Origin: Blastochloris sp.
GTDB taxonomy: Bacteria > Verrucomicrobiota > Verrucomicrobiia > Methylacidiphilales > JAAUTS01
Assembly (NCBI GenBank): GCA_012031345.1
Contig: JAAUTS010000003.1
Coordinates: 1 to 49,355, forward strand
Length of the DNA: 49,355 nucleotides
Direction of reading: 5' to 3'
In this document: in pieces, positions 24,987 to 29,451 of the stretch
Position numbering within the stretch: position 1 is the first letter of the stretch
How the letters are laid out: each line of letters opens with the position of its first letter
Program-made: the position numbers and the translations under genes
The notes under the pieces: generated by a model
What the model saw: only the letters and a program-made list of their open reading frames with translations
Databases searched by the model: none
What the model was told of the DNA's origin: nothing

Positions 24987-25632
24987 TTATAAAATCGTGC
25001 TGTGATGGCTTTGAAACCAAGAGCGATTTGCTAGCTTACGGAAATCTTGGATTTTGTTATTAAAATCACATTTCCCCAAACGCTTGCCACAACCACAGGG
25101 ACATGTCTGTTTATTTGCCAAACGCTTTTTCATGGCCAAAATTTTTAGCGCATCACGAGCCTGCTGTTGGTTTTTTAGTGAAAAAATATCAATGTAATCG
25201 TCTAGTATTCCGTTATCACCATGATCTAACTCATTAAAAATGAGCTTTCCACCTTCTCTAAGTTTTTTGAAATGGCGAAAAGATAAGGAATTAAACAGAG
25301 TTCAGTAAATCCGAGAACGTCTGGCTTACTTTGAATTTTTAAAAGCAATCGAAGCGGCGAACCAAGACAAAGCGTTCCATCAGGATTTACATGAAATCCC
25401 CCTGTTCTAGGGATGCGTCCTCCTATTTCCAAAACTCGCGGCAACTCTTTAGGAAAATCAATAGGAATAGAAATCTGTAGATTGAAGCTATCCTTACTTT
25501 AAACGTTTGATGGGAAGCCTCAAATTCAAATTCTCCGACAATCCTTATCAGACAAACCTCTGTCGGCCTGATAGCCATCAGCGGATAATCTGAAAGAAAT
25601 TCCTTCAGTCCTGGCGCCTGATCGAAGGCCAT
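24987..25632 (-). CDS. CBASS E2-like conjugating enzyme with C-terminal Cys cluster, two frameshifts
   Basis: Reconstructed protein of about 215 aa. The N-terminal part reads MAFDQAPGLKEFLSDYPLMAI...VGEFEFEA, then DSFNLQISIPIDFPKELPRVLEIGGRIPR. The E2 active site is FHVNPDGTLCLGSPLRLLLKI, with the catalytic Cys in the His...Asn-x-Asp-Gly-x-x-Cys-Leu-Gly context of prokaryotic E2s. It ends DALKILAMKKRLANKQTCPCGCGKRLGKC, a SEC-C-like zinc-binding cluster. Two single A residues are missing (AAAGTAAGG ~25500 and TTCAAAAAACTTAG ~25262). No E1 or JAB protease is adjacent, so this matches the E2-only 'type II short' CBASS layout, where the E2 tunes the cyclase. It starts four bases after the CD-NTase stop. 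Confidence 0.82.
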
Positions 25633-25635
25633 TTT

Positions 25636-26837
25636 TCATTCCTTCATCCAAGGTTTGGGCGGTGTTTCGGTGATAACATGGCTCTTCGTCTTGGAAATGA
25701 TATTTATCTCCGCTTCATCAAATGCCCTCTTTATCATGTTGTCATCGAGATTAATCCCAAATTTGGCACTGGCTTGCTTTACGACGGATTCAGGGTTGGC
25801 GGACCTCTCGATCAAACCAAAATCTGTTTGAGCTTGTTCAAGCCACGCCTTAAAGTTGCCCTCTAGATTCAAATGGGAATATTTTTGATCATGCCATTTG
25901 TCGGCAAAATCTTCCGCTGGATTAACAGGATTAGGCACACGAGGCTTACTTGGCAGAACGTATTTGCTCATGTCTGTTAAAATACGCCTGAGCGAATCTT
26001 CAACCGAATTTTCTCCCTGATAGGCCGCTGCCGATAATGTTGTTAATATGATGGAGATCGGCTTTCGATCTGGATTATTTTTGAACATGACATCCCGATG
26101 CCGTTTAAGGATTTGGATGCACTGCTGGAGAGGAGATTTCCACTTCCAAGCCGGGAGGTCGTCCATCTTGGCTACTTTGGCCTCAAATGCGCGTTTCTCC
26201 AGAAGCTGCCCAGCCAATCTAAGCCTTGATTCAAACCATAGTGCATATCCTTCCGAATTGCTGATGCGCCAGTCACCACTGATGATGCGGTAATCAGGAT
26301 GCCGATTGTCCGTGATTGCTCCGGCATGTTTTGCCACCTTCCCGGCCAAAAAGTCAGATGTTCCCTGCTTGATCATCGACTCTTGCAGGAAAGTGATCTG
26401 ATTCCCATCCTGAGGAATCGAAGGAACCACATCCATGTGGAAACTTAGCTCGTCCGCATATGCCAAGCGCCAGCATCTGTGCATTTCCTCAAGCCTCTCT
26501 TCGATTTTCCGGGCAACGCGATATGCTTCAAGATCTTTGCCAACCAGCTTTTTTAGGAATTCCTGAGTATGCGAAGCCTTTGTGATGCCCGACCGCAACC
26601 GACATCCAAGATCCAAATCGTATGATTCATTCGGATTCAACGGACGAATAACCGTTCCCAATCGAAAAGACCCCTGTGGATAAATATGTGGTGAATATTT
26701 GCTGCTCTCGGATTTGGGGTTCTCAAACCATTCCCCGAGATTTTGGTATCGGGTTTCGGCTTTTCATACGCGCTGGGCGGAATTTCCAATGCTTCTGCAA
26801 TGGCTTCCGTTACTTTATTTGTGATGTTAGTGTTCAT
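25636..26837 (-). CDS. CD-NTase (cGAS/DncV-like nucleotidyltransferase), one frameshift
   Basis: The signal-making enzyme of CBASS. After adding one A in TATGAAAAGCCG (~26766), the N-terminus reads YEKAETRYQNLGEWFENPKSES and YSPHIYPQGSFRLGTVIRPLNPN. It contains the G-S polymerase motif (QGSFRLGT), the D-x-D metal site (ESYDLDLGCRL) and the third Asp in FHMDVVPSIPQ, so the whole catalytic triad is present. Length about 400 aa, normal for the family. The remainder (SPLQQCIQILKRHRDVMF, SVEDSLRRILTDM) is the helical C-terminal lobe. The start overlaps the capV stop by four bases. The product nucleotide and clade cannot be decided by eye. Confidence 0.88.
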
Positions 26838-27795
26838 AAATTGTATAGGTTGTAGCTAGGCGTGTAAGGGACTGCTTTATGGTCAAAGAACCCTTTGTCC
26901 ATGAGATCAGACGATTGATGTCGCCATTGAGCATCTGCCAAGGCAAGGAGTTCATGACTGAGTTTATCCAACTTGAAGTCTCCGGCTGCCACCTTCGGGT
27001 TGATTTCGTGGTAGCGATCCTTGCCGAGAAGATGAGTTACCATTCCTGACGCAGATTGGGATTGTCCCCGCATCATAAAATTGATGAGAGGCCCCGCCAT
27101 GGCAGCTTTTCCTCCAGCAGTTTTAATTTTCTCTATGGAATAGATTTCATCCGTTGTCCCAATTCGTAGTGCTGCGATATTTTTTGATCTTGGCCCAGAT
27201 ATCCCAAACCTTCAGCCACGGCAAGCATGACAGGATTATTTGACCATATCCCCCCATCAACAAGTTCCAAGCCGGAATCTTTGACGTGGGGAGTAAAGTA
27301 TGTGGGAGCAGCACTTGTGGCCAATGCAACATGAACCGCGAGCTCCTTAAAATCAGTTTGTAGGCGTTTGTGATGAGGGGTTTTGAAAATGTGGATTCCC
27401 TCAAATTTCGGGTCAAACGCAGGTATCAGCAGGCGAGTTTTGCTTTCGCCAAGTTTCCTACTCTCCAGAAGCTCTTCCAACGCTTTGTGGAGTCCTTCAC
27501 TGGAATATTTGACATCAATCCAGTGTTTGGCATCTCCAAGGAGCGAAGATGGAAAAATTTGTTCCCCCTTGGACAAATAGAGTTCCATGATCTGGGCCGC
27601 GCTAAATCCAAGCCCAAGTCCGATGGCAATGATGCCACCCGTGCTGGTCCCTGCGATCAGATCAAAGTGATCAACAACGCGGGTATTTCGTTCGGCTTCC
27701 CATTTGGCAAGCAGTGCTATAGAAAAAAGTCCCTTAAGACCACCACCATCAAGAGAAAGAATTTGAAACCGGGATGTTTCCGTCGCAATATGCAT
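26834..27795 (-). CDS. capV: CapV patatin-like phospholipase, CBASS effector, one frameshift
   Basis: Membrane-degrading effector activated by cyclic nucleotides. It has FQILSLDGGGLKGLFSIALLAKWE (oxyanion D-G-G-G-x-K/R-G), LIAGTSTGGIIAIGLGLG (nucleophile Ser in G-x-S-x-G) and LELVDGGIWSNNPVMLAVAEG (catalytic Asp in D-G-G). One A is missing from GATCAAAAAATATCG (~27180). With it the protein continues NIAALRIGTTDEIYSIEKIKTAGGKAAMAGPLINFMM to a normal end at 26834, about 320 aa in total. A promoter and operator-like site lie just upstream. Encoded directly before the CD-NTase, as expected for an effector-cyclase pair. Confidence 0.9.
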
Positions 27796-27804
27796 AATGC
27801 AGGC

Positions 27805-27833
27805 ACTGTAAGCAGCGAAAGCTTACGGTGCAA
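27805..27833 (-). promoter_or_regulatory. Candidate capV promoter with embedded operator
   Basis: On the minus strand, TTGCAC, a 17-base spacer and TACAGT form a plausible sigma-70 promoter ending about ten bases before the capV start. The spacer holds an inverted repeat (GTAAGC-N7-GCTTAC, 27808-27826) whose right half overlaps the -10. The 14-mer GTAAGCTTTCGCTG (27813-27826) matches 12 of 14 bases with the site in front of capH. A repressor bound here would block RNA polymerase. Confidence 0.55.
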
Positions 27834-27840
27834 GCATTTT

Positions 27841-28545
27841 TTATAAATCTACTTGTTTTGTTGGGGGGAATATCTCAGTGAGCCGAATTCTGGCCACTAC
27901 GGGATTAACATCGAACGTTTCTGCCAAATGCTGTTCGGCTTTTTGGCGCTTCGAGCCAGGAAGCTTGGGCCCATATTGGCTTTCTTCTAGAAATGAGGAT
28001 ATGGCCTTTCTAAATAAACTCTTGGGAAGCAAAAGTCCACTAATCGCCCTGTTGGCTTGCCATTCCCACCATTTGCCGTTGTAAACTGGTGTGCCAGATA
28101 CCGGGGAAATATCCGAGGTCCTACAAAGAAATTTAGGACTACCTTTATGAGAAGGGTCTTGGGGACCGAATAAACTGGGCGTGGAATCTTCTATAAAAAG
28201 CTTGGGATGAAGCAAGCCATGTCCCCCTTCATGAGCCAATGTAGAGCGCACTCGACGTTCAGCAGTGGCAGTTCCTTCATGTTCAATTCTGGAAGAAATA
28301 AGAAAACCCGTCACCGCGCCTTTGCTGTTGAAGATCGCAGAACCCATAATCCCATCTCCCAAATCGGGATAATCCACTACGACTTGAAAATATTTCTCGA
28401 GAAAAAGGTCCACTTTGATGGGCTCTGGATTTTCAGGAAGGAGTTTGACCTGACGCAAGGCGTCACAGCAAATATCATCAATTTCGGAGACTTCATATTG
28501 GAGTCTCAGAGGATAGGGACCTTCACGCGTGCGAAATTCCTTCAC
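27841..28545 (-). CDS. capP: CapP-like ImmA/IrrE metallopeptidase, CBASS regulator (234 aa)
   Basis: Zinc peptidase with the H-E-x-x-H motif in RSTLAHEGGHGLLHPKLF and a downstream acidic ligand helix WWEWQANRAISGLLLPKSLF, as in ImmA/IrrE (COG2856) proteins. The C-terminal part (AEQHLAETFDVNPVVARIRLTEI) is a helical DNA-binding-like or substrate domain. Its gene overlaps the HTH gene capH by four bases and precedes capV. In known CBASS operons with this pair, CapP cleaves the repressor CapH after sensing DNA damage, releasing the operon. The same role here follows from family and position. Confidence 0.85.
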   Translation of the reverse strand: MKEFRTREGPYPLRLQYEVSEIDDICCDALRQVKLLPENPEPIKVDLFLEKYFQVVVDYPDLGDGIMGSAIFNSKGAVTGFLISSRIEHEGTATAERRVRSTLAHEGGHGLLHPKLFIEDSTPSLFGPQDPSHKGSPKFLCRTSDISPVSGTPVYNGKWWEWQANRAISGLLLPKSLFRKAISSFLEESQYGPKLPGSKRQKAEQHLAETFDVNPVVARIRLTEIFPPTKQVDL

Positions 28546-28883
28546 TTGCCTTTTTGCTTAGAAACGATTTTTTGAATTTCTTCTAGAGAAAGTTCGCTTT
28601 GAAGGATAGACCGAAAAGCCAGTCCTGCTTTAGGATCAGCGAACATCATATTGCGGATTGCTTCGGCCTCATCACGGAAATCATATTGTTTTAATTCTTC
28701 AGCCGGAACCCCGATTTCTTTGGCTAAAAATTCCAGTTTATCAGCGGAAGGGAATCGCCGACCTAGTTCGATGTCGGAAAGGAACGCTCCCGACACCCCG
28801 ATCCTCTTTGCAAGCTCGCGCAGAGAGATATTTTTTTCTTCACGCAATTGTCGAAGTTTTGAACCGAATGATATTTTGTCCAC
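28542..28883 (-). CDS. capH: CapH-like HTH repressor of the CBASS operon (113 aa)
   Basis: Xre-type helix-turn-helix protein: FGSKLRQLREEKNISLRELAKRIGVSGAFLSDIELGRRFPSADKLEFLAKEIGV fills the first ~65 residues. A C-terminal tail (DEAEAIRNMMFADPKAGLAFRSILQSELSLEEIQKIVSKQKGK) would form the dimerisation part and contain the peptidase cleavage region. GTG start at 28883. It overlaps capP by four bases. An operator-like palindrome lies directly against its start, pointing to autorepression. Confidence 0.85.
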   Translation of the reverse strand: MDKISFGSKLRQLREEKNISLRELAKRIGVSGAFLSDIELGRRFPSADKLEFLAKEIGVPAEELKQYDFRDEAEAIRNMMFADPKAGLAFRSILQSELSLEEIQKIVSKQKGK

Positions 28884-28896
28884 AACGTAAGCTTAC
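28883..28896. promoter_or_regulatory. Operator-like palindrome at capH start
   Basis: GTAAGCTTAC (28887-28896) is a perfect 10-base palindrome. The 14-mer CAACGTAAGCTTAC on the plus strand matches CAGCGAAAGCTTAC upstream of capV at 12 of 14 positions. It lies next to the capH start codon in the 103-base divergent region shared with the type III R remnant gene. A weak promoter TTGCTG-N17-TACTCT is seen on the minus strand just upstream. Candidate CapH binding site. Confidence 0.55.
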
Positions 28897-28986
28897 ACTC
28901 GGAGTCGCCTTTTGTCCAGAGTAGTGTCTAAGGCTTCAAACAGCAATTTTCTTTGCGATGAACCGCAAATGAAATAGTTTCGTCTC

Positions 28987-29451
28987 GTGTCGCATTCAAA
29001 AAAACTAAAATCCTCAGCTGTTTATAAGCCAGATGGCTCGGATGTGAAGCGTTTTCTCTTCACTGGCGTCACAAAGGGGCTTTTCGGTGAGGTGGCATTT
29101 GATTCTGGTCCAGAGCGCGACTTGGCCGTCGTCATGGAGGATGACAGCAAGGTGTTGAAGTGGTTACGACCTTCGCTTAACCAACTCCCTATTTTCTATC
29201 GGGGCCGGTTCTACAATGTGGATTTTGTTGTCGAGACAGAGACCACGAAGTTCCTGATCGAAGTGAAAGCGCGAAACTCACTCGCTGAAGGTGATGTCCG
29301 GGAGAAGGCCAAGTCCGCCATCCGGTGGTGCGAAGTTGCATCAGGCGTAGAGAAAGGTAAGAAATGGGATTATCGTTTGATTCCTGACGATGCCGTGAAG
29401 CGGACAAGTGATTTTCATTTCATTATTGGGCAAGCTGTAACCGTTATTTAA
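28987..29451 (+). CDS. C-terminal nuclease part of a type III restriction enzyme R subunit (remnant or stand-alone)
   Basis: A 154-aa ORF matching only the extreme C-terminus of Res subunits. It carries DSGPERDLAVVMEDDSKVLKWLRPSLNQLPIFYRGRFYNVDFVVETETTKFLIEVKARN, with D...E-x-K of a PD-(D/E)xK nuclease, then KAKSAIRWCEVAS and YRLIPDDAV. The helicase region of about 700 or more residues that normally precedes it is absent. An in-frame stop lies 10 bases before the GTG start, so it is truncated at the junction with the CBASS operon. No Mod methylase is present. It could still be expressed as a small nuclease at the head of the following operon, whose first gene begins 16 bases downstream. Confidence 0.75.
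   Translation: MSHSKKLKSSAVYKPDGSDVKRFLFTGVTKGLFGEVAFDSGPERDLAVVMEDDSKVLKWLRPSLNQLPIFYRGRFYNVDFVVETETTKFLIEVKARNSLAEGDVREKAKSAIRWCEVASGVEKGKKWDYRLIPDDAVKRTSDFHFIIGQAVTVI

Follow-up and report, generated by a model that had tools for sequence, protein, structure and literature searches.

Repressors of the XRE family that are released by a protease and act at more than one promoter include DdrO of the PprI/IrrE-DdrO pair in Deinococcus and ImmR of the ImmA-ImmR pair in ICEBs1. The CapH/CapP module reportedly has its founding paper in Lau et al. (EMBO J, 2022). CapS is another regulator of immune operons. ChIP-seq, FP, and EMSA show that it binds one palindrome at the regulator genes and another at the promoter from which the downstream immune operon is read; the palindrome close to its own gene is narrow, and the one ahead of the cargo is wide (PMC13373217).

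The regulatory and CBASS genes of the locus

The window (the whole stretch of DNA analysed, 49,355 nucleotides) has an XRE-type HTH gene followed directly by an M78/IrrE-type metallopeptidase gene, which is the arrangement of the CapH/CapP module. The two regulator genes encode the XRE HTH protein and the metallopeptidase and are not the GHKL kinase and STAS-wHTH repressor of CapK+CapS. A patatin effector, a cyclase, and an E2-like gene lie in one operon, which is the content of a short type II CBASS system, and the related locus L020 has the same order. The genes are listed below.

capH, 28542..28883, minus strand: 113 aa, Cro/CI-type (XRE) HTH repressor, start codon GTG at 28883
capP, 27841..28545, minus strand: 234 aa, IrrE/PprI-like metallopeptidase with HEGGH
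capV part 1, 27133..27795, minus strand: patatin-like phospholipase effector, ATG at 27795 (Pfam Patatin E 2e-28; PADLOC effector E 2e-76)
capV part 2, 26834..27100, minus strand, different frame: C-terminal part, from the PADLOC effector model and comparison with CapV of L020
CD-NTase (cyclase) main part, 25636..26661, minus strand: PADLOC cyclase E 3e-96; Pfam DncV-like E 1.5e-8
E2-like protein, 24990..25632, minus strand, three frames: PADLOC E2 E 4e-23 for one piece; comparison with E2 of L020

CapH matches Pfam HTH_19 (E 2e-15) and the PADLOC capH model (42.6 bits, a score similar to those from other HTH models), and its AlphaFold model is entirely helical (pLDDT 89). CapP matches the PADLOC capP model at E 5e-10 (37 bits), and HEGGH is kept in an alignment of its relatives. 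A CapP profile had no match among PDB sequences. The structure nearest to the CapP AlphaFold model (pLDDT 85.6) is PprI with ssDNA (8sln, E 2.6e-4), and the model also matches Thauera CapP (7t5t, E 1.9e-3).

Intact reading frames for the CBASS genes were not found in this assembly. The capV frame is broken near 27140-27170 and continues in a second frame, the N-terminal part of the CD-NTase lies in another frame (approximately 26661-26837), and E2 is spread over three. An unrelated oxidoreductase gene at approximately 22,240 is also frameshifted, so the breaks in capV, the cyclase, and E2 (25226-27170) are probably assembly indels and not signs of a decaying system; the capH and capP frames are unbroken. 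At its end, the E2 reading has a CPCGCGKRLGKC motif (25090-25130, minus strand), a possible zinc-binding SEC-C-like tail. A divergent gene at 28987-29451 (plus strand) matches the C-terminal part of a type III restriction enzyme (PADLOC E 8e-21) and looks like a remnant of another defence system.

Two related sites in the window

A sequence-only reading of this DNA had pointed to a shared operator-like 14-mer in front of capH and capV. Both copies are present, CAACGTAAGCTTAC at 28883-28896 and CAGCGAAAGCTTAC at 27813-27826, and they are identical at 12 of 14 positions. The 3.18-Mb genome contains exact matches to GTAAGCTTWCGYTG at two places only, both in this locus. Each 14-mer was said to contain a palindrome; this is true of the capH copy, which includes GTAAGCTTAC, but the capV copy has one half only (GCTTAC/GTAAGC), with its partner outside at 27808-27813. 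A match of at least 12 of 14 between the two upstream regions occurs in 1.2% of dinucleotide shuffles. The 14-mer by itself is thus only modestly unlikely. The case gains its strength from the dyad described below and its conservation.

The contiguous 14-mer was rejected as a conserved element. Its TTWCGYTG positions are mostly spacer and are not kept in relatives, and only 5 of 30 loci share a 12/14 match between both regions, with about one expected. Judged from the sequence comparisons, the real motif is the dyad TGTNNGC-N7 (or N8)-GCNNACA, with half-site TGTNNGC. The window has the following sites.

Cargo-side operator (predicted), 27808..27826, minus strand: GTAAGC-TTTCGCT-GCTTAC, perfect dyad, 0 mismatches
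capH-side operator core (predicted), 28887..28896, minus strand: GTAAGCTTAC

The cargo-side dyad is the sole exact match in the 3.18-Mb genome, and its arms extend to 27803-27831 (GCACcGTAAGC...GCTTACaGTGC). Approximately 1.07 kb away, the capH-side site is ambiguous and can be read in two ways, as a narrow palindrome or as a degenerate wide dyad. In the wide register (28877-28897) it is TGTAAGC-TTACGTT-GTGGACA, which has one mismatch to TGTNNGC-N7-GCNNACA and runs into the GTG start. The GTAAGCTTAC core is found at the same place in L021-L023, L036, L052, and L109. Both in the window (28881-28895) and in relatives, the operator reaches into the capH start codon.

Promoter anatomy

Promoter-like elements accompany both sites.

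capH promoter (putative), 28890..28918, minus strand: TGGACA (28918-28913), 17 nt, TAAGCT (28895-28890)
Internal capV promoter (putative), 27805..27833, minus strand: TTGCAC (27833-27828), 17 nt, TACAGT (27810-27805)

At capH, GTAAGCTTAC overlaps TAAGCT, which stands six bases before the GTG start. Elements of the form TTGACA-17/18-TANGCT are located 5-9 nt (mostly 6) upstream of the capH start codon in L027, L028, L030, L031, L034-L036, L039, L049, and L052. Promoter elements this close to the start codon, as seen in many loci, predict a leaderless capH message and place the right half of the operator over the -10. The window transcript is predicted to start at approximately the GTG itself.

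Ahead of capV, TTGCAC and TACAGT do lie around the site with 17 bases between them, as had been claimed, and the dyad is seated in this space with its right half over the -10. The claimed overlap with the -10 therefore exists, but the overlapping part is the right half of the dyad and not the 14-mer. The internal start is predicted near 27798, approximately 3 nt upstream of the capV ATG at 27795. Similar elements frame the dyad in relatives (TTGACT-16-TACAGT/TACACT in L020-L022 and TTGACA-17-TACACT in L037), and in these the cargo start codon is approximately 6-8 nt past the -10. The registers of the two sites differ: the distance from the beginning of the dyad to the -10 is approximately 11-12 nt at capH, compared with 17 nt at the cargo. 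A generic sigma-70 promoter scan called neither of the two window promoters because their -10 hexamers are poor; that both are active is what we infer from position and composition. A T-run within approximately 30 bases after the capP stop, ahead of the dyad, is present in L027, L035, L039, L041, L049, L055, L058, L059, and L066, and it might terminate the regulator transcript.

Conservation among capH-capP loci

CapP relatives were sought in 388 Verrucomicrobiota genomes, and 47 further loci came from a genome-wide scan. The loci are from Verrucomicrobiota, Pseudomonadota, Gemmatimonadota, Acidobacteriota, Nitrospirota, Chloroflexota, and others; many are on MAG contigs, and single taxon labels may be wrong. 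The first two relatives looked at had dyads at capH and behind capP. For the forward test, the motif GTAAGC-N7-GCTTAC was taken from the window only, with up to two mismatches allowed. Among 43 other loci, it was found behind capP in 21 (0.17 expected from shuffles) and at capH in 13 (0.10 expected), and three control regions had 0 of 43 each. A spacer of eight was allowed later, after relatives had been seen, and a representative set of 30 loci was used with mutual CapP identity below 70%, close relatives having been removed by hand from 70% clusters. In this N7/N8 test, 24 of the 30 representatives had the dyad behind capP (0.18 expected) and 13 had it at capH (0.33 expected), while the three control regions again had none (0/30 each). 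A clear cargo-side site is missing from six representatives, and a strong capH-side site from about half of them.

The half-site consensus from 34 cargo-side sites is T-G-T-(A/T)-(A/C)-G-C, with T3, G6, and C7 in 68/68 half-sites and G2 in 66/68; the site score that picked these 34 favours consensus letters, so the letter counts are partly built in, which is not the case for the counts obtained with the window-derived motif. Conservation next to orthologous capH and capV had been named as a check on the sequence-only reading. What is conserved, in front of the cargo and at capH with empty control regions, is the dyad; the 14-mer is not the conserved form. The proposal that CapH represses two promoters gains support from conservation of the dyad at both places and from the matching spacers described below. 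A site pair distributed over many phyla looks like a portable safety switch rather than a coincidence.

Loci of the PADLOC type of capH-capP in Pseudomonadota had no shared motif at the two places (1/23, with 1 expected), so the two-site rule covers a subclade. Given this result and the score of only 37 bits to the capP model, the window CapH/CapP clade is, by sequence, distinct from the PADLOC-type clade.

Spacer agreement and site strength

The capH-side and cargo-side sites of a locus have equal spacers (7/7 or 8/8) in 20 of the 21 loci in which both score at least 9 (Fisher p=3e-4), and the exception is L032, where the two spacers tie. This agreement fits one dimer geometry per CapH, with one CapH dimer reading both sites. 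In L109 the spacers probably differ, being 8 at the cargo and 7 at capH by eye.

In a separate clade (L053, L054, L056, L057, and L061-L063), the capH site has a 6-bp spacer and an internal site is missing. The cargo of L053, L056, and L057 starts 18-19 bp after capP, and a single site is kept at capH, which fits an internal operator being present only where there is an internal promoter. The recognition-helix region of CapH is altered in the 6-bp clade (APHVRDVE in place of APFLSDVE).

By a site-quality score that was designed after the sites had been seen, the cargo-side dyad is the better of the two in 21 representatives, the poorer in 7, and equal in 3 (p=0.013). This asymmetry fits tight control of a toxic cargo together with looser autoregulation of the sensor, and it is an indirect hint at the steady sensor level that the sequence-only reading had proposed.

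Reverse searches and cargo genes

The exact pattern TGTAAGC-N7/8-GCTTACA occurs once in the 388 Verrucomicrobiota genomes. The single occurrence is approximately 22 bp behind a CapH homologue, with no CapP between, and ahead of multiubiquitin/E2-type genes, which were named by their likeness to the cargo of L023. L109:1113-1522 (G013 C1) encodes a CapH homologue with both sites and without CapP before multiubiquitin/E2-type cargo; it is possibly a CapH-only version or served by a protease encoded elsewhere. In a second phylum (396 genomes), the exact motif had six sites; a single one is behind capP, and the five elsewhere are compatible with chance. Reverse searches of viral contigs gave zero and one matches, the one match being beside no capP. 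The loose pattern TGTNNGC-N7-GCNNACA was tried and rejected as a genome-wide regulon finder; its reversed control turns up at about the same frequency, and a match therefore has meaning only beside capH/capP.

Cargo behind the internal site includes CapV/cyclase/E2, other patatins, CD-NTase, SAVED-HNH, multiubiquitin/E2, KAP NTPase, HNH, and DUF2188 proteins. Because the site precedes unrelated cargo types, the operator goes with the regulator and not with the cargo.

Alternative explanations

Accidental likeness of two short sequences has the 12/14 shuffle frequency given above in its favour, and it is refuted by the dyad in 24 of 30 independent loci with empty controls and likewise by the 43-locus test; we give it practically no weight. 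Alternatively, the inverted repeat behind capP could act in the RNA, as a terminator or attenuator hairpin, and resemble the capH site by accident. It could form an 11-pair stem with a 7-nt loop directly after the stop codon, and the plus strand scores terminator-like. However, no T-run follows in the operon direction. The two variable positions pair perfectly in just 17 of the 34 sites, whereas TGT and GC hardly vary in either half, as in protein half-sites. The same half-sites also lie over the -10 at capH, where no transcribed stem would form, and a hairpin is very improbable. The genes are co-directional, and looping is possible over the approximately 1.07 kb between the sites; a single promoter ahead of capH could thus serve the operon, with the cargo-side dyad a secondary or looping site at which CapH joins both or forms a roadblock. 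L053-type loci do run from one promoter, but these loci, which have no gap between capP and cargo, have no internal site, and in several relatives the cargo-side dyad is enclosed by TTGACT-16-TACAGT-type elements, the start codon following approximately 6-8 nt past the -10. This arrangement is improbable for the window.

CapH may instead have two binding modes of different cooperativity, using the narrow palindrome GTAAGCTTAC at capH and a wide palindrome ahead of the cargo. Two such modes are published for CapS, which binds TTAA half-sites at 1-bp and 10-bp spacing (PMC13373217). The palindrome is intact at capH in the window and in the six other loci that share the core. Its conservation is explained by its TAAGCT half, which doubles as the -10. 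In L027, L028, L031, L034, L035, and L042, the capH-side site is a clear wide dyad, and the wide reading in L023, L036, and L052 has the 8-bp spacer of the cargo site. With wide capH-side dyads in many loci, the narrow palindrome is not favoured as a general mode, and we regard two modes as unlikely.

Proposed mechanism

The reading that we prefer, and hold to be very probable, is that CapH autoregulates capH-capP through a weaker operator and silences the toxic cargo through a stronger one, with cleavage by CapP releasing both. A CapH dimer would read the 21-bp dyad TGTNNGC-N7-GCNNACA. At the capP-capV junction, the perfect dyad would fill the space between the -35 and -10 of the internal promoter, where bound CapH would exclude RNA polymerase and keep CapV, the cyclase, and E2 silent. 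The less perfect copy over the -10 of the capH-capP promoter would give weaker autoregulation, leaving regulator and protease present with the cargo off. By analogy with published CapH/CapP work, activated CapP (the trigger is single-stranded DNA in studied relatives) would cleave CapH, and both promoters would open, with the larger change at that of the cargo.

A broader proposal, to which we give even chances, is that capH-capP-operator is a portable cassette, with one dimer geometry (spacer 6, 7, or 8) common to two graded operators, leaderless regulator messages, and an internal operator that marks the joint for cargo swapping. If true, the genes swapped at the joint would include CBASS, ubiquitin-like, SAVED-HNH, and unknown ones, and the operator could serve in searches for new cargo, including CapH-only versions such as L109. 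Because the dyad is at the regulator/cargo joint whatever the cargo, it can help to find and delimit unknown defence genes behind capH-capP. A guess from a single locus would become a testable regulatory code for an entire clade of defence regulators, made up of half-site, spacer, and promoter register, and this code would offer an account of how a cell keeps its sensor made while a self-killing effector is off.

Comparison with known systems

A literature search found no paper describing a consensus for the CapH operator or an internal promoter under CapH control; the founding 2022 paper was outside this search and may contain part of it, and the novelty of the two-operator CapH design is provisional. 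With the CapH+CapP module, the window shares an HTH repressor gene and then an IrrE/PprI-type protease gene beside a CBASS operon, and the CapP fold matches Thauera 7t5t. It differs in its shorter CapP (234 aa, with only 37 bits to the PADLOC capP model) and in its site pair, since the sampled PADLOC-type loci have no shared motif at the two places. PprI/IrrE-DdrO and ImmA-ImmR differ in having their own operators and targets and are not a portable cassette before defence cargo. CapK+CapS shares the two-site layout with the window and is the closest published design, although it uses unrelated proteins (a STAS-wHTH regulator with a GHKL kinase), an unrelated half-site (TTAA), and release by phosphorylation rather than proteolysis (PMC13373217).
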